Positions 25,924 through 32,346 of a stretch of 64,000 nucleotides of DNA are shown piece after piece (position 1 is the first letter of the stretch; each line of letters opens with the position of its first letter). The stretch comes from Hyphomicrobium sp. CS1BSMeth3. GTDB lineage: Bacteria; Pseudomonadota; Alphaproteobacteria; Rhizobiales; Hyphomicrobiaceae. Location: positions 434,001-498,000 of the forward strand of contig NZ_FPEI01000005.1 of NCBI RefSeq assembly GCF_900117415.1. The letters run 5' to 3'. Both the position numbers and the translations under genes were made by a program. The notes under the pieces were generated by a model. That model worked only from the letters and a program-made list of their open reading frames with translations. It did not search any database and was not told where the DNA came from.

Positions 25924-27024
25924 TCACCCAAACTGCACGGCGTAGACCGGCGGCAGCGTGTGCGAGACGCACGCCCAGCTCTCGCCTTGATCCTCGCTCA
26001 CCCAGAGACCGCCCGTCGTCGAGCCCATGGCGAGGCGATCGCCGCTCTCGTCGATCGCAAGCGCATGACGATAGACCACGTCATAAGCGTGCGACTGCGG
26101 CAGCCCCTTCGTCAGCGTCTGGAATGTCTTGCCGCCATCGCGCGTGCGCGTCACGACGAGCTTGCCATCGACGGGAATGCGCTTCTCGTCCTTGATCTCG
26201 GGGACGAACCACGCCGTATCCGGCTCACGCGGGTGCACGACGACGGCAAAGCCGAACGCCGAGGGCTTCACGTCCGTCAGCTCGGTGAAGTTGTGCCCCT
26301 CATCCGACGAAACGAAAACGCCGTTGTGATGCTGCACCCACATGCGGTGCGGCGCCGCCCGGCACTGCGCGAGGCAGTGAACATCCTGCGCATTGGGTTC
26401 GCTCACCTGCTCGGGCGGCATGTATTCGGCGCGCATGCCATGTCCGCGCTGCGTCCACGTTTCGCCCGCATCCCCGGTGTGCCAGATGCCGCCGGTCGAA
26501 ACGGCGATCGAGACTTGCTTTGAATTGCGCGGATCGACCAGGATCGAGTGAATACCCGGAAGATCAGCGCCGCCGCCGGCCCACATCTTGCGCAGAGGAT
26601 GATCCCAGAGTGCGCGCACGAACTGCCAGCTCTGGCCATCGTCCTTCGAGCGGAAGAGACCGCCGGGGAGCGTCCCGCACCACAGAACACCCGGCTCATC
26701 GGCGCCTCCCGAGACGAGCGCCCAGATACGCACGGTGCTCCAGGGCAGCGGCCGGCCCCACATGTCGTTCTCTTCGAGCCCCTCGGGCTTTTCAGGATAG
26801 GCGGGCGTCGCGATCTCCTCCCAGCCATCCGCGGTGGAGCGATGCACCTTCACGCCGAAATGGCCGTGATCGAGGGCCGCGTACTTCCGGCCGCTGCGCC
26901 TATCGCTCAGTGCGAGCGTCACGTTGTCGGCGAGGAAGTCGACCTTGGCGATCTCCCAGCCGCGGCCTTCGCGTGCGACTGTGAACAATCCTTTGCGCGT
27001 CGATACGAGAAGTTCGTCGCTCAT
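25924..27024 (-). CDS. Asp-box (BNR/sialidase-fold) beta-propeller protein
   Basis: 366 residues with no signal peptide. Five Asp-box motifs (S/T-x-D-x-G-x-x-W/F) are spaced along it: SKDDGQSW, TGDAGETW, SSDEGHNF, TRDGGKTF and SEDQGESW, as in WD40/YVTN/BNR-like propellers. Sialidase Arg-triad residues are not evident, so glycosidase activity is doubtful. It ends the operon with a MoaD/ThiS-like gene six bases upstream; this pairing recurs in many bacterial genomes, but its function is unknown. Confidence 0.82.
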   Translation of the reverse strand: MSDELLVSTRKGLFTVAREGRGWEIAKVDFLADNVTLALSDRRSGRKYAALDHGHFGVKVHRSTADGWEEIATPAYPEKPEGLEENDMWGRPLPWSTVRIWALVSGGADEPGVLWCGTLPGGLFRSKDDGQSWQFVRALWDHPLRKMWAGGGADLPGIHSILVDPRNSKQVSIAVSTGGIWHTGDAGETWTQRGHGMRAEYMPPEQVSEPNAQDVHCLAQCRAAPHRMWVQHHNGVFVSSDEGHNFTELTDVKPSAFGFAVVVHPREPDTAWFVPEIKDEKRIPVDGKLVVTRTRDGGKTFQTLTKGLPQSHAYDVVYRHALAIDESGDRLAMGSTTGGLWVSEDQGESWACVSHTLPPVYAVQFG

Positions 27025-27030
27025 CGTGAT

Positions 27031-27300
27031 CTAGCCTCCCGATAGTGCTTGAAACACGTAGATGGTGCTGCGATCGCCGACGGCATCGCCCAGATCTTTG
27101 CGATCCGAGATCATCACGCCGTCGATGAAGATCGTCATGTGCCGGCGCAGCGCCGCTTGATCATCCAGCACGTAGCTGCGCGCCTGCGGGTTCGCCGCAA
27201 ACACCGCATCCAGCACCTCGCGCACAGTCGCGCCCGGCGCCTCGGCCTCGGGACACGCGACGTGCCGCTGGATGTTCGGCGTGAAGACGACCCGGGCCAT
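27031..27300 (-). CDS. MoaD/ThiS-family ubiquitin-like protein
   Basis: 89 residues of beta-grasp type, with the conserved middle ATVREVLDAVFAANPQARSYVLDD and the C-terminal Gly-Gly (FQALSGG) that in MoaD and ThiS is adenylated and thiocarboxylated as a sulfur carrier. No moaE, thiG or adenylating enzyme gene is near. It is followed six bases later by the Asp-box propeller gene, suggesting a joint, unidentified function. Confidence 0.85.
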   Translation of the reverse strand: MARVVFTPNIQRHVACPEAEAPGATVREVLDAVFAANPQARSYVLDDQAALRRHMTIFIDGVMISDRKDLGDAVGDRSTIYVFQALSGG

Positions 27301-27322: not shown

Positions 27323-27808
27323 CTACTTGCCGGCGTACGCGCGCTCGAGCGTGGCGATGTCGAGCTTCTTCATCTGGAACATCGCTTCCATGGCGCGCTT
27401 GACGCCCGCCTTGTCCGGTCCCTTGAAGACGCGCGAAAGAGCACTCGGCACAATCTGCCAGGACAGCCCGTACTTGTCCTTGAGCCATCCGCACTGACTT
27501 TCAGCGCCGCCATCGGCCGTGAGCTTCGCCCAGAGATCATCGACCTCCGCCTGGCTTTCGCAGCTCACCGAAAGCGAAATGGCTTCGTTGAACTTGAAAA
27601 TCGGACCGCCATTGAGGGCACTGAAGCGCTGTCCCTCGATCTCGAACTCCATGACCATCACCGAGCCGGGCTTGCCGCGACCACCCTCGCTGTAGCGCGA
27701 GACGTCGATGATCTTCCCGCCCTTGAAGACCGAGAGATAGAAGTTGACGGCCTCCTCGGCGTTGTCGTCGAACCAGAGGAACGGCGTGATCTTCTGCTTG
27801 GCCGCCAT
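27323..27808 (-). CDS. VOC-superfamily protein, PhnB/3-demethylubiquinone methyltransferase-like
   Basis: 161 residues starting KITPFLWFDDNAEEAVNFYLSVFKGGK, typical of the PhnB-like VOC group, with a second half including KLTADGGAESQCGWLKDKYGLSWQIVPSAL and the ending RAMEAMFQMKKLDIATLERAY. VOC proteins are metal-dependent lyases, isomerases or dioxygenases; these residues do not settle the reaction. It lies three bases after the neighbouring VOC gene and 22 bp before the MoaD-like gene, in the ECF42 cluster. Confidence 0.88.
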   Translation of the reverse strand: MAAKQKITPFLWFDDNAEEAVNFYLSVFKGGKIIDVSRYSEGGRGKPGSVMVMEFEIEGQRFSALNGGPIFKFNEAISLSVSCESQAEVDDLWAKLTADGGAESQCGWLKDKYGLSWQIVPSALSRVFKGPDKAGVKRAMEAMFQMKKLDIATLERAYAGK

Positions 27809-27811
27809 AAC

Positions 27812-28231
27812 TCAAACTCCTTCCTTCGCGGGAACGGCGCTCATGTCCATCCAGAATGGCTCCCACACGTGACCATCGGGATCGGCGAACGCGCGACCGT
27901 ACATGAAGCCCATATCCTGCGGCTCGCGCGCATCCTTGCCGCCCGCTGCAACGGCCTTGCGCATGATCTCGTCCACGGCCTCGCGGGAGTCATAGCTCAG
28001 CGCGACGAGCACCTGCGTCACCTTGTTCGCATCGGCGATCTCGTTCTTGATGAAGCTCTTGAAGTGCTTGTGCGTCAGCAGCATCGCATAGCTGTGGCCT
28101 TCGCTGATGATCATGCCGGCTGCGTCGTCGTTGGTGAAGCGCTCGTCGAACTTGAAGCCCAGCGCCGTGTAGAATGCGATCGTCCGCTTCAAATCCTTGA
28201 CGGGCAGATTGACGAATACACTCGTGCTCAT
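27812..28231 (-). CDS. VOC/glyoxalase-superfamily protein
   Basis: The start MSTSVFVNLPVKDLKRTIAFYTALGF follows CGAGGTC and marks a one-unit VOC protein of 139 residues. It contains SEGHSYAMLLTHKHFKSFI and ends with AFADPDGHVWEPFWMD, the usual C-terminal strand and Glu of the fold. Substrate unknown. It follows the frameshifted DUF1428 gene by about 50 bp within the cluster controlled by the ECF42-type sigma factor. Confidence 0.87.
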   Translation of the reverse strand: MSTSVFVNLPVKDLKRTIAFYTALGFKFDERFTNDDAAGMIISEGHSYAMLLTHKHFKSFIKNEIADANKVTQVLVALSYDSREAVDEIMRKAVAAGGKDAREPQDMGFMYGRAFADPDGHVWEPFWMDMSAVPAKEGV

Positions 28232-28283
28232 GATGACCTCGGGTTTTGCGCGTTGATCAATCAGCCGGACTTCGCGAAGCCGC

Positions 28284-28635
28284 TCAAAGCTGGACAATCG
28301 GGACGAAGCCGCCCCAGAACATCCGCTTGCCATCGAATGGCATGTTCGCCGGGTCGCCTTTGAGGCGCGGGTCCTTCATGACGGCGGCGGTTGATGCGGT
28401 CACGATCCTCGCGCGACTTGTAGGTGATCCACGAGAACACGACGGTCTCGCCTTCTTCGAGCTTAACGGCTTGCGGAAACGACGTGTGCACACCTGGCTT
28501 TACATCCTCGCCGATGCACTCGACGAACGAGAGCGCGCCGTGATCCATCCAGACTTTGCCGGCGAGCGACGCCATTTCCTTGTAGGCATCCAGGTTCTTG
28601 ATCGGAACGGGAAGCACGTAACCATCGACATACAT
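28284..28635 (-). pseudogene. DUF1428 protein gene, frameshifted
   Basis: The reading frame from ATG 28635 (AAGGAG seven bases upstream) encodes MYVDGYVLPVPIKNLDAYKEM, VWMDHGALSFVECIGEDVKPG and VVFSWITYKSREDRDRIN, matching DUF1428. At about 28380-28389 the frame is lost; one frame over, VMKDPRLKGDPANMPFDGKRMFWGGF continues to the natural stop at 28284. Removing one base from the run between Asn and Met codons restores 116 residues, the normal length. Either a real inactivating insertion or a sequence error in a CGG-rich run. Confidence 0.85.
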
Positions 28636-28672
28636 GGGCATTCTCCTTGATCGGAAAGGAAGAGAGGTCGGA

Positions 28673-29101
28673 CTACTTCTCCGAGGCGATCGACCACATG
28701 ACACCGAACGGGTCGCGCAGGACGCCATAGCGGTGGCCCCAGAACATGCGCTGCACAGGCACGACAACCTCGCAGCCGGCATCGACGGCGCGCTTCCATG
28801 CCGGATCGACGTCCTCGACCTGCAGGTGCAGCGTGTAGCCCTGTGGTTTGACGTCCGGATAGCCGTGCTCCGGGAATGGATCGCACAGCATGAGCGAGCC
28901 ACCATTCACATAGAGGTGGATGTGCATATCGCGGCCCTTCTCGTCGGGCGGCGCACGCCCCACCTCCTTGGCACCGAAGGCACGCGCATAGAACTCGGCA
29001 GCTTTCGCCGCACCGTCGAGCTGAAGGTAAGGCGCTACGCCACCCCGAATCTCGACCTCTCCGGCCTTGCAGGCCTCACTCGGCATCGCTTGTTCGGACA
29101 T
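28673..29101 (-). CDS. VOC-superfamily protein, PhnB/glyoxalase-like
   Basis: 142 residues; the start MSEQAMPSEACKAGEV follows GGAGG. The VOC core is VAPYLQLDGAAKAAEFYARAFGAKEV, VNGGSLMLCDPF and GYTLHLQVEDVDPAWKRAVDAGCEVVVPVQRMFWGHRYGVLRDPFGVMWSIA. The WGHRYGVLRDPFG ending is characteristic of the PhnB-like bleomycin-resistance/dioxygenase group. It is the first gene after a second ECF42-type promoter-like site and is followed by the DUF1428 gene about 37 bp later. Confidence 0.88.
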   Translation of the reverse strand: MSEQAMPSEACKAGEVEIRGGVAPYLQLDGAAKAAEFYARAFGAKEVGRAPPDEKGRDMHIHLYVNGGSLMLCDPFPEHGYPDVKPQGYTLHLQVEDVDPAWKRAVDAGCEVVVPVQRMFWGHRYGVLRDPFGVMWSIASEK

Positions 29102-29153
29102 CGATCCTCCATAGTTGGTCAAAGTTGCCGTTGGGCGCTCTGTTTGATCCGAG

Positions 29154-29180
29154 GACGATCTGGCGCGGCGACCGCCGACA
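29154..29180 (-). promoter_or_regulatory. ECF42-type promoter-like site before the VOC gene
   Basis: On the minus strand TGTCGG (29180-29175) is followed after exactly 17 bases by CGTC (29157-29154), then 52 bases later by the VOC gene ATG. The same elements and spacer occur before the YCII gene. Reported ECF42 promoters use TGTCGA at -35 and CG(A/T)C at -10, from memory of work in Streptomyces. Confidence 0.65.
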
Positions 29181-29187
29181 CCCGCGA

Positions 29188-30471
29188 TCAAGAATTTTTC
29201 TCAGGCACCTTCTTTTTTCCGCCAGCTCGTGCCGCACCTGCGAGCTTGTCGAGCTGGAGGCGTATGTGCGCGGCCTCCGCCGGCGTATTGGCAAGCGCGA
29301 TGGCACGATCGAAGGCGACCTTGGCCTCCTGCATCCGCTCGAGCTCGAGCAGGAATGCGCCGCGCGCACCGTGGAAGTAGAAATAGCCGTCGAGTTGGCC
29401 GGCAAGCGGCTCGATCATGGCGAGTGCAGCTTCAGGCCCCTCGGCTTTCGAAACGGCAACAGCCCGGTTGAGCGTAACGACGGGCGATGGCTGCATCTGC
29501 TCGAGCGCCCCGTAGAGCAGCGCAATCTGCGCCCAATCGGTGTCCTCGGCGCGTGCAGCACGCGCGTGGAGCGCCGCAATGGCTGCCTGCACTTGATACG
29601 GACCGGGCCGGCGATGGCGGAACGCCTTGTCGACGAGCGCGAGACCTTCCGCGATCAGACTGGAGTTCCAGCGGCTGCGATCCTGGTTCGGGAGCAGCAC
29701 GGTGTTTCCGTCATCGTCGAAGCGGGCATCGGCACGCGCGTGCTGCAGGAGCAGCAAGGCCAGAAGCGCCATGATCTCGGGCTCGACCGGGAACAGATGA
29801 AGCAGCAGGCGTCCGAGGCGGATTGCCTCCTCGCAGAGTACGGCCCGCGCGCCCTGCTCGGCCACGTCATTCGTGTAGCCCTCATTGAAGAGCAGGTAGA
29901 GCACGCCGGCGACAGCGGCGATCCGCTCGCTGCGCTGGACCGCTCCCGGCGCCTCGAAGGGCACGTTGGCACCGCCGATCCGCCGCTTCGCGCGCGTGAT
30001 GCGCTGCTCCATGGCCGCATCGGTCACGAGGAAGGCGCGCGCGATCTGGGCAACCGACAAGCCCGACACGATGCGCAGTGCGAGTGCGATCTGCTGCGTC
30101 GCCGGCAGCTCGGGGTGGCAGCATACGAACAGAAGACGCAGGATGTCGTCGCGGTAGTCGGATGCATCGAGGCGCTCGATCGTCGGCGTCTCGCTGTCGG
30201 AGAGATCCGAGATCGCGTCTTCCTCGGGGAGCGGCTGCAGACGGCGCTGCCGCCGCGTCGCGTCGATCGCGGCATTGCGACCGACCATGATTAGCCAAGC
30301 CGCAGCATCGCGCGGCGGACCCTGGGTCGGCCACAGGCGCAGTGCCCTGAGGCAAGCCTCCTGGCAAGCCTCCTCGGCCATGTCGAGATCGCGGAAATGG
30401 CGGAGCAGCGCCGCAACCACGCGGGGACGCGCGGACGTCAGAACGGCGTTGATCCAGCGAGTGTCCGTCAC
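29188..30471 (-). CDS. ECF42-group RNA polymerase sigma factor
   Basis: Start is GTG at 30471, overlapping the YCII stop (GTGA). Region sigma2 spans about 12-80 (DLDMAEEACQEACLRALRLWP, AAWLIMVGRNAAIDATRR) and sigma4 about 105-165 (LALRIVSGLSVAQIARAF, MEQRITRAKRRI). The C-terminal half is the DUF6596/TPR-like extension typical of ECF42 (VLYLLFNEGYTNDV, LCEEAIRLGRLLLHLFP, VVTLNRAVAVSKAEGPEAALAM). There is no anti-sigma gene, as usual for ECF42, where the C-terminal extension is thought to control activity. Two TGTCGG-N17-CGTC sites in the cluster suggest autoregulation and control of the downstream VOC genes. Confidence 0.92.
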   Translation of the reverse strand: MTDTRWINAVLTSARPRVVAALLRHFRDLDMAEEACQEACLRALRLWPTQGPPRDAAAWLIMVGRNAAIDATRRQRRLQPLPEEDAISDLSDSETPTIERLDASDYRDDILRLLFVCCHPELPATQQIALALRIVSGLSVAQIARAFLVTDAAMEQRITRAKRRIGGANVPFEAPGAVQRSERIAAVAGVLYLLFNEGYTNDVAEQGARAVLCEEAIRLGRLLLHLFPVEPEIMALLALLLLQHARADARFDDDGNTVLLPNQDRSRWNSSLIAEGLALVDKAFRHRRPGPYQVQAAIAALHARAARAEDTDWAQIALLYGALEQMQPSPVVTLNRAVAVSKAEGPEAALAMIEPLAGQLDGYFYFHGARGAFLLELERMQEAKVAFDRAIALANTPAEAAHIRLQLDKLAGAARAGGKKKVPEKNS

Positions 30472-30839
30472 GGCGCCTGCTTTCCGTCTTTGAAGGTACC
30501 GACCGGCCGGATCTCGTAGGCACCGCCCGGATTGGCCTCGGCCAGCTCGCGCGCAACGGCGAGCACCTCGTCCAGGTTCTCGGCATCGACGATGTAGAAC
30601 CCGAGAAGCTGCTCCTTGGTCTCGGCAAATGGCCCGTCGATGACGATCGGCGGCTCGCGATCCTTCCTGAGCGTCGTCGCGGCCGTCGTCGGCAGGAGGC
30701 GCGCGACCGGCCCGAGCTTGCCCTGGCGCGCAACCTTCTCGTGCACGACCGACAGCTTCGCCATCACGGCGGCGTCCTGCTCCTTGGTCCAAGCACAGAC
30801 CACGTTCTCGTCGTGGTAGCAGAGGATGGCGTACTGCAT
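30468..30839 (-). CDS. YCII-related (DGPF) protein
   Basis: The start MQYAILCYHDENV is preferred to an upstream ATG seven residues earlier because the family begins there. The product has 123 residues with the DGPF motif (VIDGPFAETKEQLLGFYIVDAENLDEVLAVA) and RPVGTF near the end. YCII proteins are dimeric, dehydratase-like small proteins of mostly unknown activity. The stop overlaps the ECF42 sigma start by four bases, the classic ECF42 arrangement. A promoter-like site lies 30 bases upstream. Confidence 0.93.
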   Translation of the reverse strand: MQYAILCYHDENVVCAWTKEQDAAVMAKLSVVHEKVARQGKLGPVARLLPTTAATTLRKDREPPIVIDGPFAETKEQLLGFYIVDAENLDEVLAVARELAEANPGGAYEIRPVGTFKDGKQAP

Positions 30840-30868
30840 CGGGCATCTCCATGTGATCACGCTTCAAG

Positions 30869-30895
30869 GACGAACGAGAGCAGGCGCGGCCGACA
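30869..30895 (-). promoter_or_regulatory. ECF42-type promoter-like site before YCII-sigma operon
   Basis: On the minus strand TGTCGG (30895-30890), 17-base spacer, CGTC (30872-30869), 30 bases upstream of the YCII ATG. It is the same arrangement as at 29154-29180, making autoregulation of the sigma operon likely. Confidence 0.65.
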
Positions 30896-30982
30896 GCCGC
30901 CACCAAATTTTGCGTGCGGACCAAACGACTGATCCGCCAAGCAGTTAACCGGATATTTGCCATCGTCGGCCTAGGCTCGAGC

Positions 30983-31300
30983 ATGGCGCGCATTCTCATA
31001 CTGCTGGCGATCGCCGCGATTACCTATGCGGTCATCCTGCCGGGACCTCCCGGCGGGCCGGTTCTTGTCGACCCATCCGCTGCTGCGGCAGTAGCGCCTT
31101 CTGCGACCTCCAGCCTGCCCGGCCTGGACCTCCTGTCGCTGGGGATCGGCCTGATTGTAGGCTTCATCCTCGGCTGGCTGTGGCAGTTGCCCTGGCGGAC
31201 GGTTCCGGAGCTCTTCCGTGAGGTCGCCTTCCGCTCCATCCGGGGCATCGGGCTCGTCGGCCTTGCCATGGGCGCAGCCGCCATCCTGCTCTTCTACTGA
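30983..31300 (+). CDS. Small membrane protein (105 aa)
   Basis: The start MARILILLAIAAITYAVIL begins with a membrane helix; a second helix follows at about 48-68 (LSLGIGLIVGFILGWLWQL) and a third near the C-terminus (GIGLVGLAMGAAAILLFY). The loop between the first and second is Pro/Ala-rich. No strong ribosome-binding site is seen, and an in-frame ATG at 30914 is an alternative. No family is recognised. It is divergent from the YCII operon and convergent with the DUF4846 gene. Confidence 0.5.
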   Translation: MARILILLAIAAITYAVILPGPPGGPVLVDPSAAAAVAPSATSSLPGLDLLSLGIGLIVGFILGWLWQLPWRTVPELFREVAFRSIRGIGLVGLAMGAAAILLFY

Positions 31301-31311
31301 CAGGGACGCGC

Positions 31312-32187
31312 TCATCCCTGACCGGTTCCCGTGGGCCAGCGCCTGAGGCTGCCCGGCGGAAAAATCCACTCCGGCGTGACGAACGGCTGATCAGGCCCCA
31401 GACGAAACCAGGGCGAGCCGTCCGGCGTGTCGCGGCCCTTGAGAACATGCATGTCCTGCGCCGGCATGAAGCTCTGAATGAGCAGGAAGCGGCGCTCGCC
31501 TGTCGTCGGATGCTCGGCGACGTCGGCGACCAGCACGGCATGGCCGGGGAAGCCGCCCTTGATGATCACATCGCCAATCTCGACGCGGCCATCCCGCACG
31601 GGAAGCAGCTCGCGCTCCAGTGAATGCGTGCCCGCCCACGTGAAGACCGTGTCCATGTAGCGTCGGAACGAGGCATAGCTCGCATCGGGCGGCGACCGCT
31701 TGGCCCAGACGAGGGCGCGTCCCTCCGCGCGTGGGCGCTCGCCGGCTGCCCAGCGGCTGAAGGACATGGGCTTGCTTCCGCCCGTGTCATTGAAGGCAAT
31801 GCGCCGGGTCTCCCCGCGCGCGAATTGCCACTCGGCCCTGAGCCGCATGACCGCATCCGCACACTGCTGGAGGTCACGCATGCCGGTATCGATGTCGATC
31901 ACCGCGGCATGGACGTCCTGGCGCCACTTCGGTGCGCCCGTGTGGAGAAGGACGGGTGTGCCATCGGGCTTCAGCGGCAAGCCGCGCAGCCACGCGGCAA
32001 AGCTCCCCTCCGGCACCGGAATGCGCACAAATCCCTCCGGCGGCACGAAGCGTCGGCCGAGCCGGTCGCTCTCGGCAGGCATCTCGGATCGCCAGGCATA
32101 CTGCCCGGCTGGGGCCGCGCTGCTCGTGCCTGCAAGCGCCGCCATGACGACGAGCATGGCCGCACTCATCTGCCGGATAACTTGCAT
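31312..32187 (-). CDS. Exported DUF4846-like protein
   Basis: The start MQVIRQMSAAMLVVMAALAGTSSA gives a clear signal peptide after AGGCAGGG. The mature protein has PPEGFVRIPVPEGSFAAWLRGLPLKPDGTPV, QQCADAVMRLRAEW and FPGHAVLVADVAEHP...FLLIQSFMPAQDMHVLKG, the DUF4846 pattern. Family function is not known. It is probably periplasmic and stands alone. Confidence 0.8.
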   Translation of the reverse strand: MQVIRQMSAAMLVVMAALAGTSSAAPAGQYAWRSEMPAESDRLGRRFVPPEGFVRIPVPEGSFAAWLRGLPLKPDGTPVLLHTGAPKWRQDVHAAVIDIDTGMRDLQQCADAVMRLRAEWQFARGETRRIAFNDTGGSKPMSFSRWAAGERPRAEGRALVWAKRSPPDASYASFRRYMDTVFTWAGTHSLERELLPVRDGRVEIGDVIIKGGFPGHAVLVADVAEHPTTGERRFLLIQSFMPAQDMHVLKGRDTPDGSPWFRLGPDQPFVTPEWIFPPGSLRRWPTGTGQG

Positions 32188-32346
32188 ATCCCTGCCTCTG
32201 ACGTTTCCTCCGGGCTTTCCTTGACCAGCAACGCGGCCACAGGGCTTTGGCATATTCATGACCCCAATTGACAGCGTGACGTCAGGAGCCAATGTCAGAG
32301 AACGAAGCAAGGGTGCGGGGCCGACGGGGAACGGGAGAGCGAGGCG

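Follow-up and report, generated by a model that had tools for sequence, protein, structure and literature searches.

Extracytoplasmic function (ECF) sigma factors of the ECF42 group are widespread. The closest described member is RpoE10 of Sinorhizobium meliloti, for which three motifs reading exactly TGTCGG-N17-CGTC have been given (PMC6180224). Overexpression of RpoE10 raised six genes, including SMc01149-48, which lie directly behind rpoE10, and the distant SMb20475-74, each of these two operons having the motif (PMC6180224), and the transcription start at SMc01149 was mapped 9 nucleotides (nt) past CGTC (PMC6180224, Table 1). A two-site arrangement like the one treated below has already been published for S. 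meliloti (PMC6180224). The ECF42 factors Sven_0747, Sven_4377 and Sven_7131 of Streptomyces venezuelae carry a C-terminal tetratricopeptide repeat (TPR) extension of ~200 residues that is essential for activity (PMC8999054). Control through this extension has been proposed, with the YCII protein as a suspected partner, and the partner of the extension is still to be identified (PMC8999054, section 15). ECF-10 of Pseudomonas putida, also an ECF42 factor, has been tied to stress, antibiotics and biofilm (PMC6180224, PMC8999054). Here we describe a locus of this kind in a 64,000-nt stretch of Hyphomicrobium sp. CS1BSMeth3 (contig NZ_FPEI01000005.1, positions 434,001 to 498,000; hereafter the window), in which the genes for a YCII-domain protein and a putative ECF42 sigma factor lie between two copies of one promoter-like motif, sites A and B. 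We assign a probability of about 0.85 to the reading that this sigma factor recognizes TGTCGG-N17-CGTC at both sites and at about seven scattered promoters, its TPR-like tail probably being controlled by a partner.

A Pfam scan gave the minus-strand order YCII; sigma-70 regions 2 and 4 with DUF6596; Glyoxalase; DUF1428; Glyoxalase; PF06983. The features are as follows, VOC standing for vicinal oxygen chelate and aa for amino acids.

30869..30895, minus strand: site A, ECF42 promoter predicted for the YCII-sigma operon (TGTCGG at 30895-30890, N17, CGTC at 30872-30869)
30468..30839, minus strand: gene for a YCII-domain protein of 123 aa, heading the sigma operon (PF03795, E 1.1e-20)
29188..30471, minus strand: gene for an ECF42-type sigma factor of 427 aa with a GTG start (sigma regions 2 and 4, DUF6596, helical TPR-like C-terminus)
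29154..29180, minus strand: site B, ECF42 promoter predicted for the downstream operon (TGTCGG at 29180-29175, N17, CGTC at 29157-29154)
28673..29101, minus strand: gene for a VOC/glyoxalase-fold protein of 142 aa, heading the downstream operon (PF00903, E 2.3e-18)
28261..28635, minus strand: DUF1428 gene, frameshifted (PF07237, positions 1-91 of 102)
27812..28231, minus strand: gene for a VOC/glyoxalase-fold protein of 139 aa (PF00903, E 1.9e-14)
27323..27808, minus strand: gene for a PF06983 (PhnB-like) protein of 161 aa (PF06983, E 6.2e-49)

The locus resembles that of S. meliloti RpoE10 (operon SMc01151-rpoE10) in its YCII-sigma order, in the DUF6596 extension of the sigma factor and in the placement of the motif before the YCII gene and just after the sigma gene. 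With the S. venezuelae factors it shares a C-terminal TPR-type extension and a YCII-type gene nearby (PMC8999054), and with P. putida ECF-10 the group and the gene context, as far as these are described in PMC6180224 and PMC8999054. Over 411 residues, the sigma factor shares 68% identity with the RpoE10 orthologue of S. meliloti Ak57, and the YCII protein of Ak57 is 59% identical to the one here. Both site sequences of Ak57 are identical to the ones published for strain Rm1021 at SMc01151 and SMc01149 (PMC6180224); from the gene context and these identical promoter sequences we infer that the Ak57 orthologue is RpoE10 of Rm1021. Given the RpoE10 motifs, the overexpression data and the orthologous sites of Ak57, the central idea of a preliminary description of this locus, that one sigma factor drives its own operon and a second one, is already known for the ECF42 group. 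The newer part is the proposal of a scattered regulon, which goes beyond known ECF42 biology: six genes were reported for S. meliloti (PMC6180224), whereas about nine promoters are predicted here.

The preliminary description had called the sigma factor ECF42-type, and its domains, its YCII neighbour and its identity to the RpoE10 orthologue bear this out, as does the motif, which is that of the three given for RpoE10 (PMC6180224). The ECF core (PF04542, E 1.2e-12; PF08281, E 1.6e-10) is followed by DUF6596 at residues 183-283 (Pfam). Residues 177-417 are helical in a predicted model with a mean pLDDT (predicted local distance difference test) of 75, and the best Foldseek matches of this model were TPR proteins, three of them at E ≤0.001. 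No Pfam TPR match was obtained in the sigma factor at E 0.001, so the TPR likeness is one of fold and not of profile, and at a mean pLDDT of 75 it denotes the fold type only. The S. meliloti orthologue gave a TPR_21 match that lies below the TPR_21 cut-off. Among solved structures, the best sequence matches span the sigma core and none covers the extension. A search of the ten proteins around the site at E 0.001 found no anti-sigma family; one of the ten (30914-31300) matches no family, which leaves room for an anti-sigma factor of an unfamiliar kind.

The two copies of TGTCGG-N17-CGTC, placed at 30895-30869 and 29180-29154 in the preliminary description, were confirmed on the minus strand. 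Their spacers have equal length (17 nt) and different sequence, and site B starts 7 nt past the sigma stop codon. If transcription starts 9 nt past CGTC, as at SMc01149, it is predicted to begin at ~30860 for site A and at ~29145 for site B, which implies leaders of ~21 nt and ~44 nt, respectively.

Phylogenetic footprinting was performed with 81 loci, namely the window and its 80 relatives, the best 80 of 355 stretches that encode a relative of the sigma factor. A YCII gene lies ahead of the sigma gene in all 80 related loci. At the place of site A, the strict motif was present within 300 nt before the YCII gene in 71/81 loci, and in nearly all the loci listed it stood 50-odd nt ahead of YCII; ten loci had no strict match there, one of these ten carrying the motif with a spacer of 18 nt. 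At the place of site B, near or after the sigma stop, the motif was found in 41/81 loci for the region -150 to +400 and in 40/81 for -100 to +400. Site B was present in 27 of the 30 loci in which the sigma gene is followed, at most 700 nt on, by the start of a VOC, DUF1428 or PhnB-like gene, compared with 14 of the 51 others. Spacers of 10-16 and 18-25 nt yielded 0 to 2 loci each, versus 71 and 41 at spacer 17, and none of 300 permuted cores at spacer 17 exceeded 2 loci. These results support the conclusion that both sites behave as ECF42 promoters, as judged from their conservation.

The Streptomyces ECF42 promoter consensus is TGTCGA / CG(A/T)C, and the preliminary description had likened the two sites to it. 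This likeness did not hold for the -35 element, since the clade here uses TGTCGG: TGTCGA-N17-CGTC occurred before YCII in 0/81 loci and after sigma in 1/81. On the strength of the 81-locus counts we rejected, for this clade, the spacers other than 17, the permuted cores and the -35 element in its TGTCGA/C/T forms.

A model of the flanking bases was then built on 77 non-congeneric loci (67 with site A, 38 with site B), the congeneric loci L031, L032 and L050 being left out. In these loci an A/T tract lies 9-14 nt upstream of TGTCGG, and the spacer ends C-rich (C/T-rich) with TT ahead of CGTC, which is followed by (C/T)T, the T being present in 97% of A sites and 92% of B sites; a TGGGACA-like stretch lies behind site B. 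A weight matrix made from the flanks only, with the core excluded, was applied to the 28 strict matches in the genome. It split them into nine that score at least 1.7 (empirical p ≤0.0024) and 19 that score at most -11.8. Site A, at 23.5, had the best score of the 28, and site B scored 8.7. The seven high-scoring sites outside the cluster precede genes for two glutathione S-transferases (GSTs; L121 and L012), a second YCII protein (L117), a PF06983/Glyoxalase protein (L122), a PF06983 protein (L134), an alpha/beta hydrolase (L132) and an HlyD-type membrane-fusion protein (L131). The regulon would thus probably comprise about nine promoters; of the two-operon regulon first described, sites A and B stand and the extent probably does not.

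Two further observations concern these sites. At L201:3782-5553 (G000:C2), the second YCII gene, which lies behind a strong motif, is followed by a GST gene in the same direction. In the window, the end of the sigma gene (29188-29260) encodes a Lys-rich tail, and its A-rich codons contribute to the A/T tract ahead of site B, a tract of this kind being general in the relatives.

We extended the comparison to 60 genomes, grouped by their sigma match: 19 with a close ECF42 (at least 64% identity), 31 with none and 10 with a distant one only (35-49%). TGTCGG-N17-CGTCYT occurred at 107 sites in the 19 close-ECF42 genomes (1.15 per Mb; reversed control, 20), at 31 sites in the genomes without ECF42 (0.28 per Mb; reversed control, 37) and at 6 sites in those with a distant ECF42 (reversed control, 8). 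Among the 60 genomes, the motif exceeds its control only where there is a close ECF42. The flank test, here omitting the bases after CGTC, covered the 107 and the 31 sites; the 6 sites of distant-ECF42 genomes were counted and left out of it. A p value below 0.005 was reached by 20/27 sites beside a sigma gene, 34/80 distal sites and 0/31 control sites (distal versus control, Fisher 1.1e-6). Some of the sigma-adjacent sites lie on loci (L049, L055) that also trained the model; none of the distal sites does.

The genes behind the distal sites recur. Among the 46 distal sites scoring at least -4, the next gene was AHSA1 in 8 cases, GST in 7, PF06983 in 7, YCII in 6, DUF1428 in 4 and HlyD in 3; Glyoxalase and BNR/Sortilin followed with 2 each, DoxX, DUF998, alpha/beta hydrolase and SnoaL with 1 each, and 2 genes had no family. 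Seven recurring gene kinds account for 39 of the 46, and for 18/22 outside the genus of the window. Of these 46 genes 45 were scanned (L350 was left out), at L250 and L131 a plausible gene being scanned instead of the longest open frame near the site, and 24 of the 46 sites come from the window's genus and are not independent of one another. Behind the control sites we found the RNA polymerase beta subunit (3) and otherwise single unrelated families (30 of 31 genes scanned, the remaining open frame being too short), and the listed families, 25 of 30, include none of the recurring gene kinds. Behind the 34 distal sites with lower scores there were 3 AHSA1, 3 HlyD, 1 GST and 1 glyoxalase gene (among 25 of 28 families listed), so that some likely targets fall below the flank threshold.

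Homologues of two distal genes carried the site selectively. Those of the second YCII gene (n=26 in 22/60 genomes) had a strict site 70-104 nt upstream in 11/14 cases in close-ECF42 genomes and in 0/12 elsewhere; two of the three misses are in G008, beside the distant ECF42 of that genome. GST L121 homologues (n=13 in 12 genomes) had the site in 4/6 cases in close-ECF42 genomes and in 0/7 elsewhere.

Upstream of 5 of the 10 distant ECF42 genes (L190-L199, 36-49% identity) we observed TGTCGA-N17-CG(T/A)C in place of TGTCGG. This suggests a single-base difference in -35 specificity between two clades of ECF42, which can occur together in one genome.

In the explanation that we favour, RNA polymerase carrying the ECF42 sigma factor would read the TGTCGG-N17-CGTC promoters, with site A serving the YCII-sigma operon and site B the VOC-DUF1428-VOC-PhnB-like set. 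About seven scattered promoters would serve the second YCII, the GSTs, PhnB-like/VOC proteins, the hydrolase and the membrane-fusion protein. The sigma factor has no recognisable adjoining anti-sigma gene, and its activity would probably be set by a partner protein acting on the helical TPR-like C-terminal extension, for which the co-transcribed YCII protein is a candidate. We infer that the factor is active in this organism, that it regulates its own operon from site A, that a partner controls it and that its role lies in detoxification. Several results weigh against this explanation. In S. meliloti, overexpression of RpoE10 did not raise SMc01151, the YCII gene, and the mapped start of that gene overlaps the motif (PMC6180224). 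No more than six genes rose, four of these at least 2-fold, and none is described there as a GST or a pump (PMC6180224); the wide regulon may accordingly be an overestimate or peculiar to a lineage. In our own comparison, 40/81 loci lack site B (region -150 to +400), and 46/80 distal sites in close-ECF42 genomes miss p 0.005. The site before the membrane-fusion gene weakens to p 0.015 without the two bases after CGTC, and the gene starts 246 nt downstream of it. Finally, the 28 strict matches in the 6.02-Mb genome compare with 19 for the reversed-pattern control, which is near chance.

This last count, together with the loose pattern TGTCG[AG]-N16-18-CG[AT]C, is what could be said for sites A and B being chance matches in a G+C-rich genome, the cluster using other promoters. 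The loose pattern occurred 7 times in the window versus 3.5 expected, and since 7 or more were reached in 8/100 shuffles, inside the shuffle range, this count alone is not significant. A genome-wide bare count so near chance decides little in either direction; bare motif counts fail to split real from chance sites, and we excluded them as support. The preliminary description had held that a chance frequency across the genome would speak against its proposal, and the frequency is indeed close to that; conservation at orthologous places with strict spacing (71/81 and 41/81) overrides it. The same conservation in 80 relatives, the conserved flanks and the experimental counterpart in S. meliloti led us to reject the chance explanation, whose probability we consider negligible. 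Conservation alone cannot name the reader of the motif, which might then be a separate transcription factor instead of the sigma factor. The -35/-10 form with its fixed spacer, the excess of the motif over control in close-ECF42 genomes only, the rise of genes behind the motif on RpoE10 overexpression and the start 9 nt past CGTC (PMC6180224) all make this very improbable.

The remaining two alternatives concern the extent of control by the sigma factor. It might be that only site B and the distal sites are active, with the YCII-sigma operon under another sigma factor, site A weak or vestigial, and no positive autoregulation. The S. meliloti data fit this, since SMc01149-48 and SMb20475-74 were raised and SMc01151, with its start overlapping the motif, was not (PMC6180224). 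However, site A is conserved in more loci than site B (71/81 versus 41/81), lies 50-odd nt before YCII in nearly all the loci listed and has the best flank score of the 28, and we regard its inactivity as unlikely, though a serious contender. Autoregulation from site A thus appears likely by conservation, yet it is contradicted by the sole known experiment, that in S. meliloti. As for the proposal that the sigma factor drives its own and a second operon, the promoter of the second has an experimentally supported counterpart in S. meliloti, and that of its own operon does not. The sigma factor might instead control the cluster, with most distal sites being non-targets and the regulon confined, like that of S. 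meliloti, to two or three operons. The few genes raised there (PMC6180224) and the 46/80 distal sites short of p 0.005 would agree with so small a regulon. We consider it improbable, given that p 0.005 was reached by 34/80 distal versus 0/31 control sites, that the second-YCII and GST orthologues carry the site alongside a close ECF42 and not elsewhere, and that 39/46 better-scoring distal sites precede the seven recurring gene kinds.

The recurrence of GST, VOC/PhnB-like, AHSA1, YCII and efflux-adaptor genes suggests that the scattered regulon handles reactive small molecules, perhaps in a glutathione-linked detoxification, a reading that rests on family names, several of these families including proteins of other or no known activity. 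Tentatively, and at rather less than even odds, we go further and propose that in this Hyphomicrobiaceae-like lineage ECF42, rather than switching its own locus only, governs a scattered regulon whose ~nine promoters serve the glutathione-linked detoxification of reactive compounds. The regulon would comprise YCII, VOC/PhnB-like, GST, DUF1428, AHSA1, BNR and resistance-nodulation-division (RND)-type efflux adaptors, in a set that varies by genome, and the YCII protein would sense a reactive compound or product and act on the TPR-like tail. A literature search, outside which most subscription journals lie, found no work linking ECF42 to GST or DUF1428 and none on DGPF or DUF1428 together with sigma factors. 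The promoter as defined here, core plus flanks, refinds the same families across genera and so provides a testable list of targets for ECF42 (YCII, VOC/PhnB-like, GST, AHSA1, DUF1428, efflux), as well as a hint of function for DUF1428 and BNR proteins, which have no assigned role.

The downstream gene set had been described as VOC-DUF1428-VOC-VOC. The first three agree with the Pfam scan; the fourth gene (27323..27808) is PF06983 and gave no match to PF00903 in that scan, although by superfamily it is VOC-like. A frameshift in the DUF1428 gene had gone unnoticed. In the alignment with the intact copies of the relatives L031, L032, L050 and L345, the frame shifts after about residue 85, so that in this assembly the domain lacks its C-terminal part. 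Because this gene (28261..28635) is the sole DUF1428 copy in the genome, either the assembly is in error or the strain has lost part of the protein. Two more genes on the same strand follow the set:

27031..27300, minus strand: gene for a ThiS/SAMP1-like small protein (PF02597, E 1.1e-4; NF041918, E 1.1e-10, below the NF041918 cut-off)
25924..27024, minus strand: gene for a BNR/Sortilin-like repeat protein (PF15902, E 7.9e-12)

The gaps are 22 nt from the PF06983 gene to the ThiS-like gene and 6 nt from there to the BNR/Sortilin-like gene, and with such short gaps on one strand the second operon probably extends through both genes to 25924. Behind site B, the order here is therefore VOC-DUF1428-VOC-PhnB-like-ThiS-BNR, whereas S. 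meliloti Ak57 has AHSA1 and a SnoaL-glyoxalase fusion. The ThiS-like/BNR pair is also found behind the sigma gene in L031, L032, L050, L055 and L101. In G018 and G023, distal copies of the motif precede BNR genes.

At the upstream end of the cluster, the GTG start of the sigma gene overlaps the YCII stop in the sequence of the window. The intergenic stretch that holds site A is shared with a plus-strand open frame of 128 aa (30914-31300), which runs divergently and has no Pfam match. Upstream of the cluster, and on its strand, there is a gene for a DUF4846 protein (31312-32310).

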